Shown here piece by piece: positions 1,841 through 23,502 of a stretch of DNA of 35,118 nucleotides; the stretch's first letter is position 1; every line of letters begins with the position of its first letter. The notes under the pieces were generated by a model. The model saw nothing but the letters and a program-made list of their open reading frames with translations. It was not told the DNA's origin and ran no database searches. The translations under genes were made by a program, and so were the position numbers. The DNA is from Campylobacterota bacterium (GTDB lineage: Bacteria; Campylobacterota; Campylobacteria; Campylobacterales; Sulfurovaceae), in contig WGAM01000068.1 in NCBI GenBank assembly GCA_015494795.1, positions 1 through 35,118 of the forward strand, in the 5' to 3' direction.

Positions 1841-2449
1841 TTAACTCTCTCTACTACCTGGTTTTATAGCTTGGCTACCACTTTTACACATAGGACACTC
1901 ATTAGGAGAAAACATCTCAAATCTAAAATCTGCTAAAGCAAAAAATGGTATATCTTTTGGAAGTTTACACTCTTTTTGTGACTCTATAGAAGTATTTTCT
2001 CTTTTGCAAAAACCCCTATTAGCTAAAGATGCAAAGGCTACAACCTTGCCACCAAGCTCTTGTACTACCTTAGATGCTTCCATTGCAGAGCCACCTGTTG
2101 TAATAATATCTTCACATATTAATATTTTTTCTCCATCTTTTATATCAAATCCACGACGAAGTTGCATAGCTCCATCTTTTCTCTCTACGAAAATAGAACG
2201 AACTCCTAATGCACGAGCAAGTTCATATCCAGCCAATACTCCACCTAATGCAGGGGCACATATTGTATCTATCTCTATATTACTATCTTTTATCTGTTTA
2301 GCTAAAGCAGAAGCTAAAATTTCTGCTCTTTTAGGCTCTTCTAAGACTTTTGCACTCTGGAGATAACGATTTGAGTGATTTCCACTAGATAGAATAAAGT
2401 GACCCTCTAATAGAGCATTAGCATCTCTATAAATAGCTTCTATATCCAT
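1841..2449 (-). CDS. pyrE: Orotate phosphoribosyltransferase
   Basis: Converts orotate and PRPP to orotidine 5'-phosphate, the fifth step of pyrimidine synthesis, in the cytoplasm. The protein has 202 residues, usual for the Campylobacterota form. The PRPP-binding signature [14 protein letters not shown] lies at residues 109-122, the N-terminal substrate region reads [16 protein letters not shown], and the loop around 89-100 ([12 protein letters not shown]) carries the expected basic residues. A C-terminal CPMC motif is typical of this lineage's PyrE and may bind metal (inference). It starts directly after frr on the same strand with one base between the genes, which supports cotranscription. 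Confidence 0.95.
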
Positions 2450-5444: not shown

Positions 5445-6578
5445 ATGAGAAAGATTAATATATTAGCATTTATGTTAATAATGACTCTATATACTACAAC
5501 TATATTTACAGGGTGTGGTGGTGATGATAATAACTCTACTGCATCAGATGGAGAAACCCCTACTATAACTCTTCAGGGAAGTACCGATATTGAAATTCCA
5601 TTAGGTACAACGCAAATTCCAGAAGATGGTTATAGTGCTTTTGATTTTCAAGATGGAGATATAACAGATAAAGTTGAAAGAAGTAATAATATAGATTTTA
5701 ATAGAGCAGGAGATTATGAGGTTACATATAGTGTAACAGATAGTGATGGAAATGTAGGTAGAGCTGTTAGACATGTAAGAATTGTAAATAGTAATAGTGA
5801 TTCTCTCTATAATGGAGGTGGAACTAATGGAGTAGATAATAGTGGATATGATAATAATTATCAAGGCTCTGCTCCTGTTATATCTTTTAATCAAGATACT
5901 GTATATCTAAGTCTAGGAGAGAGTTTCCGTACCTCTATTTACTATAATGACTATAGAGCTACAGATGCTGAAGATGGAGATTTAACAAGAGAAGTTTTAA
6001 TTGATACTAGTGGATTAAATATTAATAGTCCAGGAACTTATACTGTTGTATATAGTGTAACAGATAGTGACGGGAACTATGTTGTTAAAGATAAAATAGT
6101 CGTGGTTCAAAATAGTTATAATAATAATTATAACGATAATAACTATAATAATTATAGTAGTGAGTTAGATAATTTTAAGTCATGGTATAGAAATACTTGT
6201 GGAGGTATATTTAATGATTCACTATATAATGCTTCAACTCATAAATATCATGGTAAAATAGACTGTTCTCATAGAGGATTAAGTAGTATTGATTTATCTC
6301 ATTTAAGCATTTTTGATGGAATTGATGACCTTGATTTAAGCTATAATAACCTTAGCGATATTGACTTTAGCCCTATTAGAGATATACATGAGATGTGGGG
6401 ACTTCATATAGACCATAATACACAAACTTTAAAAAATAGATATGATACTGTATCAGAAAGAAACGCACTCTTTAGATTTTTTACAAATATTCATGGAGGG
6501 AAGGGTAATACTGGTGACAAAGACGCAGGGCTATATATATACTTTAAACCACATCCGATTATAAAAATCTTTTTTTAA
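5445..6578 (+). CDS. Lipoprotein with two DUF5011-type Ig-like domains and a leucine-rich segment
   Basis: A 377-residue protein. The signal peptide ends in lipobox FTGC (Cys24), followed by a Gly/Asp/Asn-rich spacer. Two Ig-like domains (about 40-113 and 143-222) each show the pattern DGDIT/DGDLT...GTYTVxYSVTDSDGN typical of DUF5011 domains in surface adhesins. A Tyr/Asn low-complexity linker (about 222-242) leads to a leucine-rich-repeat-like stretch (about 268-315, with DLSHLSIFDGIDDLDLSYNN). The last residues (YIYFKPHPIIKIFF) are oddly hydrophobic and basic, so the end may be a truncation or frameshift product. It probably acts at the outer membrane surface; the ligand is unknown. A hairpin terminator follows. 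Confidence 0.75.
   Translation: MRKINILAFMLIMTLYTTTIFTGCGGDDNNSTASDGETPTITLQGSTDIEIPLGTTQIPEDGYSAFDFQDGDITDKVERSNNIDFNRAGDYEVTYSVTDSDGNVGRAVRHVRIVNSNSDSLYNGGGTNGVDNSGYDNNYQGSAPVISFNQDTVYLSLGESFRTSIYYNDYRATDAEDGDLTREVLIDTSGLNINSPGTYTVVYSVTDSDGNYVVKDKIVVVQNSYNNNYNDNNYNNYSSELDNFKSWYRNTCGGIFNDSLYNASTHKYHGKIDCSHRGLSSIDLSHLSIFDGIDDLDLSYNNLSDIDFSPIRDIHEMWGLHIDHNTQTLKNRYDTVSERNALFRFFTNIHGGKGNTGDKDAGLYIYFKPHPIIKIFF
5726..5746 (+). repeat. 21-base direct repeat, copy 1 (end of first Ig-like domain)
   Basis: An exact 21-base sequence encoding the YSVTDSD part of the first DUF5011 domain. It recurs perfectly at 6050-6070, although the surrounding domain sequences have diverged. Confidence 0.9.
6050..6070 (+). 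repeat. 21-base direct repeat, copy 2 (end of second Ig-like domain)
   Basis: Identical over 21 bases to 5726-5746, at the equivalent place in the second domain. Confidence 0.9.
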
Positions 6579-6584
6579 TAATAG

Positions 6585-6606
6585 TGAGTAGATTAATTTC
6601 TACTCA
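6585..6606 (+). terminator. Hairpin terminator after the Ig-like lipoprotein gene
   Basis: TGAGTAGA and TCTACTCA form a perfect 8-bp stem around a 6-base loop, seven bases after the stop codon. A T-containing AT-rich tract follows (TAATATATTTTAAT), so it is a plausible but not textbook terminator. Confidence 0.55.
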
Positions 6607-6669
6607 TAATATATTTTAATATTAACCAACTGTTAATTTTTGGTTTTCCATCTGTTTATAAAATAGATA

Positions 6670-6675
6670 TATAAT
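6670..6675 (+). promoter_or_regulatory. -10 element in front of the structured intergenic segment
   Basis: A perfect TATAAT lies 12 bases before the left arm of the 12-bp inverted repeat. A transcript would begin near 6682-6684, a few bases before the repeat. No -35 consensus is visible at 17 bases. Confidence 0.35.
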
Positions 6676-6687
6676 ACCATTATGAAA

Positions 6688-6918
6688 GATGCAGATAGAT
6701 ATACCTCCTTTTTCATATCTGCTTTGAAATCTTTGTAGTAGTAGATTTCAAAATGAGATTAGTTCTTTATAGTAGATTTTATATAATAGTAAATATTTTT
6801 ATGAATAAAACTCCCCCTCCCTTACTCCTTTTACTTTAGAACTATCTTATATCTTTCTAAATCTTTACATATAAATTTTTTATTATTAGGAGCATAGAAA
6901 AATAGCTCTATCTGCATC
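6688..6918. repeat. 231-base segment bounded by a perfect 12-bp inverted repeat
   Basis: The arms are 6688-6699 and 6907-6918, exact reverse complements of GATGCAGATAGA. A third, partial copy (TATCTGC, 6716-6722) faces the left arm. No target-site duplication is visible in the flanks, which weakens a transposon reading. Confidence 0.8.
6831..6917 (-). CDS. Possible 28-residue small protein, antisense to the candidate RNA
   Basis: This minus-strand frame starts with ATG inside the right arm of the inverted repeat, preceded at 4 bases by GGAG, and encodes a short chain beginning MQIELFFYAPNNKK. It has no signal peptide, membrane segment or recognisable motif. Open frames of this size are common by chance in AT-rich DNA. 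The good ribosome binding site is the only support. It may be a remnant of a longer, decayed gene. Confidence 0.2.
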   Translation of the reverse strand: MQIELFFYAPNNKKFICKDLERYKIVLK

Positions 6919-7016
6919 ATTCTCCATGGAGAGAAGTTAAAAAAAGTATAGTTTTCCTTGATTTGAGGAGTAACTTATATTAGACACTTAAAATCCTATT
7001 TTTACACGAATTATAT

Positions 7017-7022
7017 TATAAT
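7017..7022 (+). promoter_or_regulatory. -10 element for the sugar transferase gene
   Basis: TATAAT lies 22 bases before the start codon, with TTGGAGA serving as the ribosome binding site. No clear -35. Confidence 0.4.
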
Positions 7023-7044
7023 ATATGTAAAAATTGGAGATTAT

Positions 7045-8367
7045 ATGATTAATAAAAATATAATGAGCTTTATAATCTTATCTCTTATTGATATAATAGT
7101 ATTAATTTTACTTTTTTATATAACTGCCTTTATTAGAGATAATCTATATATTAGTAATATTCCTCCTTTTAATAAAATAGAGTTTATAGACTTCTCCTTT
7201 GCTATTATTATAGCACTATTTCTCTTTTTTAATGAAAAAATATACTCATTTAGATATGATTTTTGGCAAGAGTCTAAAAAGATAATTAAATCTCTATTTT
7301 TAACATATCTACTAGTTTTAACTATATTAGCTCTAATGAAAACAAATCAAGAGTACTCAAGACTATTTATAACTATATATTTTATACTAGCAATATTTTT
7401 AATTCCTATTATCAAAATATATAGTAAAAGAGTGTTATACTCATTTGATTTTTTAAAAAAAAGAGTTCTTATTATTGGAGAAGAGAGCGAAAAAAATAGA
7501 TTTAAAAGAGAATTTAAAATAAACTTCTATTTAGGAGAGTGTTATGATGAAAAAAATTATGATACAGTTATTATTATCTCAAAAAATATGAGAGTTGATA
7601 GATTAAATAGTTTAATATATAAATATAGAGATATTAGTGGTGGAGTCTATATTGTTCCATATATTACAGATATAAATTTTGCATACTCAACTATTATGGA
7701 GTACTCAAATATTCAATTAAACTCTATATTTATTGAGAATAGACTACTTATAAAGAAAAATATAATTTTAAAAAATATTTTTGATAAGCTTGTAGCTATC
7801 TTAATTATGCCTATATTTATACCAATTCATATAGTTATATCTATCTTAATAAAAGTAGATTCAAAAGGCTCTATTTTATTTAAACAGCCCCGTTTAGGAA
7901 AAGATAATAGCACTTTTTTATGTTATAAATATAGAACTATGTATGAAAATTCAGATACCATACTAGAAGAGTATCTACTTAAAAATCCTGATGAGATAGA
8001 CTATTATAGTAAATATCATAAATATAAAAATGACCCAAGAGTCACTAAAATTGGCTCACTTCTTCGCTCAACCTCTCTTGATGAACTTCCACAGATTTTA
8101 AATATATTAAAAGGGGAGATGAGTCTAGTAGGTCCTAGACCATATATGTTAAATGAGGCAGAAAAATTAGGAGAAGATAGAGATTTAATCTTAAAAGTGA
8201 AACCTGGGATTACAGGACTTTGGCAGGTTAATGGAAGAAACAATCTAACCTTTAAGCAGAGAAATGAGTTAGAGGTTTGGTATATTAAAAATTGGCTATT
8301 TTGGGATGATTTTATTATTTTAATCAAGACTATTAAAGTAGTTATACTAAAAGTGGGAGTTAATTAA
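7045..8367 (+). CDS. Polyprenyl-phosphate sugar-1-phosphate transferase (WbaP/PssY-like initiating transferase)
   Basis: Transfers a sugar-1-phosphate from a UDP-sugar to undecaprenyl phosphate, the first step of a surface glycan. The protein has 440 residues. About four N-terminal membrane segments (within 8-30, 48-66, 83-98, 107-126) lead to a degenerate nucleotide-binding-like region (138-210). The conserved catalytic bacterial sugar transferase domain spans 243-440, with a membrane re-entrant helix at about 247-270, PRLGKD, KYRTM, the Asp-Glu dyad in SLDELPQ (344-350), MSLVGPRP (359-366) and KPGITGLWQVNGR (386-398). This long form matches WbaP. No other glycan genes are in the window, so the sugar is unknown. 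Confidence 0.88.
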   Translation: MINKNIMSFIILSLIDIIVLILLFYITAFIRDNLYISNIPPFNKIEFIDFSFAIIIALFLFFNEKIYSFRYDFWQESKKIIKSLFLTYLLVLTILALMKTNQEYSRLFITIYFILAIFLIPIIKIYSKRVLYSFDFLKKRVLIIGEESEKNRFKREFKINFYLGECYDEKNYDTVIIISKNMRVDRLNSLIYKYRDISGGVYIVPYITDINFAYSTIMEYSNIQLNSIFIENRLLIKKNIILKNIFDKLVAILIMPIFIPIHIVISILIKVDSKGSILFKQPRLGKDNSTFLCYKYRTMYENSDTILEEYLLKNPDEIDYYSKYHKYKNDPRVTKIGSLLRSTSLDELPQILNILKGEMSLVGPRPYMLNEAEKLGEDRDLILKVKPGITGLWQVNGRNNLTFKQRNELEVWYIKNWLFWDDFIILIKTIKVVILKVGVN

Positions 8368-10042: not shown

Positions 10043-10726
10043 ATGAGCAAATTTAAAGCTTTAGAAGATGCTTTAAACTATAGTTTTAAAAATGAAAATC
10101 TCATCACCGAAGCACTCACTCATAAAAGTTATAAAAAACCCTATAATAACGAGAGATTGGAGTTTTTAGGTGATGCTGTTCTTGATTTAATAGTAGGTGA
10201 GTATCTTTTTAAAAAATTTGAAAAAGAAGATGAGGGGATTTTATCTAAAATTAGAGCATCTCTAGTCAATGAGAAGGGTTTTACAAAATTAGCACAAAAT
10301 ATAAATTTAGGAGACTCTATATTTATATCTTTAGCTGAAGAGAATAATGGAGGTAGAACTAAACCATCTCTACTATCAAATGCATTTGAGGCTGTAATAG
10401 GGGCTATATATTTAGAGAGTGGATTGGTTACTGCATCTAAAATAGTAGTAGAGCTTATTGAAAAGAGCTATGATAATATAGATTTAAACTCCCTCTCAAA
10501 AGATTTTAAGACAGCACTTCAGGAGTTAACACAAGCTGATTTTGGAGAGACACCAAACTATAAGATGATTAGAGCATTTGGTCCAGACCATAAGAAGGAG
10601 TTTGAGATAGCAGTTGAGTTACAAAATAAAATAATATCTACTGCTATTGGAAGAAGCAAAAAAGAGGCACAACAGAAGGCTGCTGATATTGCATTAAAAA
10701 AGCTTAAGGGAGAGAGTATTGAATAG
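10043..10726 (+). CDS. rnc: Ribonuclease III
   Basis: Cleaves double-stranded RNA during rRNA maturation and mRNA decay. The 227 residues include a catalytic domain (1-150) with the signature [11 protein letters not shown] at 36-46, the second acidic cluster in [13 protein letters not shown], and a C-terminal dsRNA-binding domain (about 153-222, ending [16 protein letters not shown]). AAAGGAAAG precedes the ATG. Its last eight bases overlap the start of aroC, so translation of the two should be coupled. In Helicobacter pylori rnhA lies directly before rnc; here a TPR gene does. Confidence 0.96.
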
Positions 10727-15880: not shown

Positions 15881-15957
15881 CGGAGTGTAGCGCAGTCTGG
15901 TAGCGCACCTGGTTTGGGACCAGGGGGTCGAAGGTTCGAGTCCTTTCACTCCGACCA
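15881..15957 (+). tRNA. tRNA-Pro (anticodon UGG)
   Basis: 77 bases including encoded CCA. Acceptor CGGAGTG pairs with CACTCCG. The anticodon stem CCTGG/CCAGG carries loop TTTGGGA with anticodon TGG, and the T-arm GGTTCGAGTCC is normal. First gene of a five-tRNA operon. Confidence 0.97.
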
Positions 15958-15997
15958 TGATATTTAAAAATATGATAGTTAAATCAAAGATTTGATG

Positions 15998-16073
15998 GTA
16001 GGCGTAGTTCAGTTGGTAGAGCACCTGTTTGTGGCACAGGTTGTCGCGGGTTCGAGCCCCGTCGCCTACCCCA
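15998..16073 (+). tRNA. tRNA-His (anticodon GUG)
   Basis: Acceptor GTAGGCG pairs with CGCCTAC, and the discriminator is C followed by CCA. A G at 15997 supplies the extra G-1 that pairs with C73, the identity mark of tRNA-His. The anticodon loop TTGTGGC sits on stem CCTGT/ACAGG. Confidence 0.97.
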
Positions 16074-16106
16074 TTTTGGTAAGTAGGTGTAACCTAAAAT
16101 GACGAA

Positions 16107-16183
16107 GCGCTAGTGGCTCAACTGGATAGAGCATCAGACTTCGGATCTGAGGGTTAGGGGTTCGAGTCCTCTCTGGCGTACCA
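16107..16183 (+). tRNA. tRNA-Arg (anticodon UCG)
   Basis: 77 bases with encoded CCA. The anticodon stem TCAGA/TCTGA holds loop CTTCGGA. The acceptor GCGCTAG/CTGGCGT includes two G-U pairs. T-arm GGGTTCGAGTCC-like and normal. Confidence 0.95.
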
Positions 16184-16206
16184 CTTGATTTAATTATTCT
16201 ATTAAT

Positions 16207-16283
16207 GCACTCGTAGCTCAGCTGGATAGAGCACTCGCCTTCTAAGCGAGTGGTCTCAGGTTCGAATCCTGACGGGTGTACCA
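16207..16283 (+). tRNA. tRNA-Arg (anticodon UCU)
   Basis: 77 bases with encoded CCA. The anticodon stem CTCGC/GCGAG holds loop CTTCTAA. It reads AGA, the arginine codon that dominates the genes in this window. Confidence 0.97.
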
Positions 16284-16293
16284 CTTAAATTAT

Positions 16294-16378
16294 GCGGATG
16301 TGGTGAAATTGGTATACACGCTAGACTTAGGATCTAGTGCTTCACGGCGTGGAGGTTCGAGTCCTCTCATCCGCACCA
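16294..16378 (+). tRNA. tRNA-Leu (anticodon UAG)
   Basis: 85 bases with a long variable arm and encoded CCA. Acceptor GCGGATG/CATCCGC; anticodon stem CTAGA/TCTAG with loop CTTAGGA. It is the last tRNA of the cluster and ends five bases before the stop of the convergent NlpC gene. Confidence 0.97.
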
Positions 16379-23127: not shown

Positions 23128-23203
23128 GACCCGTTAGCTCAGTCGGTAGAGCAACTCCCTTTTAAGGAGTGGGCCCTAGGTTCGAATCCTAGACGGGTCA
23201 CCA
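23128..23203 (+). tRNA. tRNA-Lys (anticodon UUU)
   Basis: 76 bases with encoded CCA. Acceptor GACCCGT/ACGGGTC; anticodon stem ACTCC/GGAGT with loop CTTTTAA. First gene of a four-tRNA operon. Confidence 0.97.
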
Positions 23204-23230
23204 CGAAAAATTGTTGTAGGTCAAAAAGAT

Positions 23231-23306
23231 GACCCTTTCATCTAGTGGCCAAGGATATTGCGTTTTCATCGCAAAAACAAAGGTTCAAATCCTTTAGGGG
23301 TCGCCA
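23231..23306 (+). tRNA. tRNA-Glu (anticodon UUC)
   Basis: 76 bases with encoded CCA and G73. Acceptor GACCCTT/AGGGGTC (one G-U pair); anticodon stem TTGCG/CGCAA with loop TTTTCAT. The T-arm reads GGTTCAAATCC. Confidence 0.95.
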
Positions 23307-23338
23307 AAGTTTTTTATCTAATTAAACAGTTTATTTAA

Positions 23339-23414
23339 GGTCGATTAGCTCAGTTGGTAGAGCGCTACCCTTACAAGGTAGATGTCACTGGTTCGAGTCC
23401 AGTATCGACCACCA
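23339..23414 (+). tRNA. tRNA-Val (anticodon UAC)
   Basis: 76 bases with encoded CCA. Acceptor GGTCGAT/ATCGACC; anticodon stem CTACC/GGTAG with loop CTTACAA. Confidence 0.97.
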
Positions 23415-23425
23415 TCTATATAGGT

Positions 23426-23502
23426 GCGGCGGTAGTTCAGTTGGTTAGAATACCTGCCTGTCACGCAGGGGGTCGCGAGTTCGAGTCTCGTCCGCCGCGC
23501 CA
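23426..23502 (+). tRNA. tRNA-Asp (anticodon GUC)
   Basis: 77 bases with encoded CCA and G73. Acceptor GCGGCGG/CCGCCGC; anticodon stem CCTGC/GCAGG with loop CTGTCAC. Last gene of the Lys-Glu-Val-Asp cluster; no terminator hairpin with a T-tract is evident after it. Confidence 0.97.

Follow-up and report, generated by a model that had tools for sequence, protein, structure and literature searches.

The DNA analysed here (the window; 35,118 nucleotides from a Campylobacterota bacterium of the family Sulfurovaceae) carries a small RNA gene whose homologues argue for a real, conserved and multicopy RNA family, previously uncatalogued and absent from Rfam 15. By comparison of homologues, the RNA, its structure, its conserved loops, its multicopy nature and a promoter box common to degP and a regulator gene are all recognizable. 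The RNA family apparently shares its activator, a cell-envelope regulator, with the protease DegP and probably shuts off the translation of chosen genes. The link of the family to an envelope regulator and degP, drawn from shared promoter sequence, is new evidence that points to its function. A first-pass annotation of this DNA, which had proposed a trans-acting RNA that masks ribosome binding sites, is partly supported: its core idea stands and its anatomy is corrected.

Anatomy of the small RNA gene

The RNA gene is located in an intergenic gap without gene-sized reading frames, between a lipoprotein gene (5445-6578) and a WbaP-type sugar transferase gene (7045-8367). It occupies positions 6684-6857 of the plus strand, as indicated by the conserved ends GAAAGAU...AUCUUUC of the homologues, by covariation and by the fold (z = -4.30, with 0 of 200 shuffles as good). 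Both ends are inferred from the conserved terminal helix, and the start possibly lies at 6682-6684. The -10 element TATAAT (6670-6675, plus strand) is nearly invariant among 38 homologous promoters. It is preceded by a conserved box of 11-bp direct repeats, TTAAC-N6-TTAAT-N6-TTTTC-N5-GTTTA (6622-6658, plus strand), which was defined by an ungapped alignment of the 38 promoters and by model R2 and is a candidate site for an OmpR-family response regulator.

The RNA consists of a closing helix and three enclosed elements, all on the plus strand. The closing helix P0, identified by homologue comparison, pairs GAAAGAU (6684-6690) with AUCUUUC (6851-6857). The loop of the P1 hairpin (6691-6722) copies the 16S rRNA 3' tail with ACCUCCUUU at 6703-6711. 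The 10-bp P2 hairpin (6723-6752) is missing in many shorter family members. The P3 stem (6753-6850; 6753-6766 paired with 6838-6850) closes a large loop that contains CUCCCCCUCCC (6811-6821) and ACUCCUUUU (6824-6832), and these loop strings are present in all close homologues. The C/U-rich strings lie in loops left open by the computed fold. No canonical terminator was found 3' of 6857 (region 6858-7044), and transcription may run on from the RNA into the sugar transferase gene (7045). The window also contains two tRNA clusters, at 15881-16375 (five genes) and 23128-23499 (four genes).

The sequence elements reported by the first-pass annotation are present, including the TATAAT 12 bases ahead of the left arm of a 12-bp inverted repeat (GATGCAGATAGA, 6688-6699; TCTATCTGCATC, 6907-6918), the 10-bp stem TTTGAAATCT/AGATTTCAAA (6723-6732/6743-6752) and the three C/U strings ACCTCCTTT (6703-6711), CTCCCCCTCCC (6811-6821) and CTCCTTTT (6825-6832). 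Genus-wide conservation indicates that the C/U strings, nested stems and promoter exceed chance. Its RNA extent of 6684-6940 is retained at the 5' end and shortened at the 3' end to 6857 by the conserved terminal helix; the longer 257-nt stretch has a fold z of -2.63.

The 12-bp repeat had been taken as the closing stem, a role that belongs to the conserved GAAAGAU/AUCUUUC pairing. Its left arm belongs to the RNA, and its right arm corresponds to the MMQIE codons of a capsule-synthesis (PF05159) gene, of which the window retains a remnant on the minus strand (6858-6988). In two relatives (G016 and G006), this gene is intact and encodes 373 amino acids on the minus strand, and the counterparts of 6600-6876 and 6856-7030 are set apart by ∼970 bp containing the rest of it. 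A frame comparison shows that the remnant consists of the frameshifted first codons of the gene, fused at a TAAAGATTTAGA repeat to the gene's end; ∼970 bp were lost between short TAAAGATTTAGA direct repeats. Since the right arm sits in the remnant of a deleted gene, the 12-bp repeat is accidental; the relatives have the right-arm sequence ∼970 bp further off and do not share the repeat. It is also unremarkable in number, because the window contains 12 twelve-mers with their own reverse complement no more than 260 bases away. An RNA antisense to the capsule gene was considered and rejected, as such a neighbour occurs in this lineage alone.

Conservation and covariation of the RNA family

The unit of ∼250 bp at ∼6612-6861 is conserved in related genomes (92% in G016, 87% in G006, 79% in G017 and 71% in G031). 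It is conserved out of context, beside a capsule gene in G016 and G006 and beside degP in G017. In the aligned homologues, the start (TATGAAAGAT) and the end (ATCTTTC, or CTTTC) are both constant and pair mutually. Between these ends, P1, with CCUCC or ACUCCUUU in its loop, is followed by an optional P2 and by P3, whose large loop holds at least one C/U string. Elements of this architecture were found 37 times in the sequences examined. Their loops match either the 16S 3' tail (ACCUCCUUU) or the complement of AAAGGAG, and most members keep the exact complement of AAAGGAG(G).

Covariation was examined by aligning eight long members with MAFFT, without fitting to structure. Paired cells amounted to 91.2%, compared with 33-51% in slid controls, over which the tested structure is somewhat favoured because it came from the window's own fold. 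Both sides had changed in 15 of 39 pairs (shuffles, 8.0; sd 1.6) and in 29 cells (shuffles, 10.8). The changed pairs are distributed over P1 (6 of 9), P2 (3 of 10) and P3 (6 of 13); the seven P0 pairs are invariant and therefore give no covariation. RNAalifold returned the same helices from the same alignment. Model R1, built from 3 sequences, misaligned longer members and was excluded from the conclusions. Homologue comparison therefore supports the plus-strand RNA with conserved anti-Shine-Dalgarno-like loops and covarying stems that the first-pass annotation had proposed, and covariation in the homologous gaps, which it had singled out as a check, is found.

A conserved reading frame was looked for as an alternative to the stems, and none was found; a small protein starting at the ATG in TATGAAAGAT was rejected on account of early stops in several members. 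A minus-strand RNA was likewise rejected, given its weaker fold (z = -1.96) and the plus-strand orientation of the promoter and terminal helix. Rfam 15 gave no match over the window element or other family members, even at permissive E-values, and the 6S RNA model had no match in the window's genome. In one locus (L064), a HEARO RNA is matched at 1865-2082 (plus strand; 87.2 bits, gathering 83), ∼190 bp downstream of a family member.

The window's genome contains at least three copies of the RNA gene, and other genomes contain more. Besides the window copy (contig C68), one copy lies on the minus strand of contig C103 near 14.6 kb and another near 18.0 kb on contig C41; in this last copy, a 13-bp stem encloses a loop that contains three anti-Shine-Dalgarno strings.

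A promoter box common to the RNA family, degP and a regulator gene

The box has the consensus TTAAC-N6-TTAAC-N6-TTnTC-N5-GTTTA, with an 11-bp repeat of the type used by OmpR-family regulators. A sequence-only promoter model covering -66 to +9 was run over 34 genomes of the genus and gave ∼67 sites with E below 1e-8, counted by hand and leaving regulator-linked sites aside; ∼65 relatives in the genus have this box in common. Model R2 located the box in 33 of the 34 genomes, and also in other families ahead of degP and other small-RNA-like genes.

Sites that had not been used for the model and were long enough (27) served as a held-out set. By the set criterion, all 27 have a terminal helix, and their C/U motifs number 3.1 per 100 nt versus 0.29 on the reverse strand. 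With shuffle control, the terminal helix is present at 26 of 26 promoter-only sites versus 38% of shuffles, and C/U motifs occur at 3.9 versus 1.3 per 150 nt; the effective held-out number is somewhat smaller, because a few sites are near-identical sister-genome pairs and the 3' end chosen at a few sites is the first to be acceptable and not the best one.

The box is located directly ahead of degP in several genomes of another family (f8) and, with no RNA between, in one genome of the window's genus (G014). In G383, it precedes an operon of degP, an OmpR-type regulator gene and a kinase gene, the same order as htrA-cprR-cprS in Campylobacter jejuni. An orthologous OmpR-type regulator gene is present in 31 of the 34 genus genomes, and nearly all of those with intact upstream sequence have the box and a second RNA upstream of it. 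This second RNA has a nearly invariant loop, in which GAACUCCUUUGAAAUA, UACUCCCUUGAUA and ACCUCCUUUGUAAUA lie, and a 15-bp closing stem that varies. Mostly three anti-Shine-Dalgarno strings are found per regulator-linked RNA (e.g. L188 1281-1480, L212 and L187-L196). The two regulators share 60% identity across families, and the kinases adjoining both are assigned to the ArsS family by NCBIfam (397 bits, cut-off 250). Neither the box nor the RNA was found upstream of the orthologous regulator gene in the window's genome (contig C106), and degP of the box-linked type was found neither there (G000) nor in G016, G006 and G019 at E 1e-70; both negatives weigh against the mechanism proposed below. 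From these co-occurrences, the box is proposed as a putative site of the OmpR-family regulator.

The RNAs driven by the box differ in other genera, where they have canonical terminators and contain C/U strings, for example UUCCUUGUUU or CUCCCUCCUUUAA. In family f8, box-driven small RNAs that possess terminators stand in tandem, ∼180-205 bp apart (L149, L152 and L160). A further box-driven type occurs within the window's family, in genera other than the window's own (L135-L139, L141 and L144); it combines a local GAAAG..CTTTC hairpin with several occurrences of UUCCUUGUUU, and some of these RNAs end in a terminator-like hairpin.

In many genomes, the element immediately precedes degP or the regulator gene with the same orientation, and it could accordingly be a 5' untranslated region that controls the downstream gene rather than a free RNA. 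This is unlikely, however, as the next gene is convergent or unrelated in the window and at other copies, and related box-driven RNAs of other families have their own terminators.

Proposed mechanism

The family is best explained, with good though not high confidence, as a trans-acting RNA, present in several copies, through which an ArsRS/CprRS-like envelope-stress system blocks ribosome binding sites. An OmpR-family regulator of the ArsRS/CprRS type, which would also act on degP, is predicted to bind the TTAAC repeats and thereby to induce RNA expression under envelope stress. The ends of the RNA form the closing helix, and its stems expose at least two C/U-rich anti-Shine-Dalgarno copies. 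These loops may pair with the strong G-rich Shine-Dalgarno sequences of chosen mRNAs, with a predicted block of ribosome binding; the predicted target set plausibly comprises envelope proteins.

Direct pairing with Shine-Dalgarno sequences is the simplest reading of how the loops may act, and LhrC of Listeria works in this way with its three redundant CU-rich sites (PMC4132741). The exact patterns ATCAAGGGAG-ATG and TTACAAAGGAGG-ATG mostly retrieved the complements of the RNA genes themselves and no conserved target, and these two patterns gave no long complementarity to mRNA leaders beyond the Shine-Dalgarno sequence. Duplex energies against the 39 main start regions of the window indicate that strong Shine-Dalgarno sequences would bind best (e.g. 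-14.6 kcal/mol for chorismate synthase at 10719), and no target was drawn from them. A simple pattern recognizes a Shine-Dalgarno sequence in only 16 of these 39 regions, and the loop could therefore still discriminate.

The multiple C/U-rich loops, together with the lack of long target-specific complementarity in the search with the two exact patterns, would also suit a sponge that titrates a protein or another RNA, such as a C/U-loop-binding protein or free G-rich RNAs, and does not bind mRNA start sites. The retention of the AAAGGAG(G) complement in most members makes such a role improbable. A CsrA sponge in particular is unlikely because the repeated loop GGA of CsrB-type RNAs is lacking, with zero GGA in 6684-6857. 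A MITE-like or degenerate element without RNA function, or one bounded by the 12-bp inverted repeat, would account for several dispersed copies per genome but is refuted by the covariation and has hardly any probability left, given that stems change with pairing kept, that loop and promoter sequences are conserved, that no conserved terminal inverted repeat is seen outside the RNA helix and that relatives lack the 12-bp repeat.

The trans-acting RNA arm may extend beyond this genus. We give an even chance to the proposal that, throughout the Campylobacterales, an ArsRS/CprRS-type envelope system controls a large number of seemingly unrelated RNAs that share only several exposed copies of the 16S anti-Shine-Dalgarno sequence, some of these RNAs being encoded directly ahead of the regulator gene. 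If true, bacteria in which no sigma-E-like RNA regulon is known would have an RNA branch of their envelope-stress response. How small RNAs control envelope stress is little understood in Campylobacterota; the family offers a directly testable RNA branch of the envelope response and an independent parallel to Listeria LhrC. The promoter model makes it possible to list family members and genes under common control for every genome of the order.

Comparison with known systems

RepG of Helicobacter pylori, the precedent named in the first-pass annotation, holds for the chemistry only, and LhrC is the closer functional match. RepG is not known to form a multicopy family or to have a degP-linked promoter box. 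RepG comes from the same class of bacteria and pairs a C/U-rich loop with a G-rich mRNA leader, but it has one C/U site, located in the terminator loop and directed at a G-repeat in tlpB, and is encoded beside hp1043 (PMC8295292). The C/U loops of the window RNA are instead in P1 and P3, and no terminator-like 3' site, as in the Rho-independent terminator of RepG, was found.

LhrC1-5 of Listeria monocytogenes are multicopy RNAs, each with three redundant CU-rich sites complementary to the G-rich Shine-Dalgarno region, and all copies depend on the envelope-stress two-component system LisRK (PMC4132741). The present family similarly has several copies per genome (three in the window's genome and more elsewhere) and redundant CU-rich sites, with three strings in the window RNA and mostly three in the regulator-linked RNA. 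LhrC is controlled by LisRK under envelope stress; a comparable control is predicted here from the box that the family shares with degP and an ArsS-type system. The lineages are unrelated, with no sign of homology, and the sites of LhrC include one in a terminator loop and one that is single-stranded, whereas this family forms an end-to-end helix, lacks a canonical terminator in the genus and has a promoter box in common with degP and the regulator gene. Because no terminator follows 6857, membership in LhrC is not claimed and the two are set side by side by description.

The proposed regulatory system resembles CprRS of C. jejuni and ArsRS of H. pylori, which have an OmpR-type regulator (PMC9449129, PMC4518328). 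The regulon of the essential regulator CprR has been called poorly known (PMC9449129), and none of the papers searched places a small RNA under CprR. CprRS is reported to affect htrA and other envelope genes (PMC4518328), and the kinases encoded at the present loci fall into the ArsS family by score.
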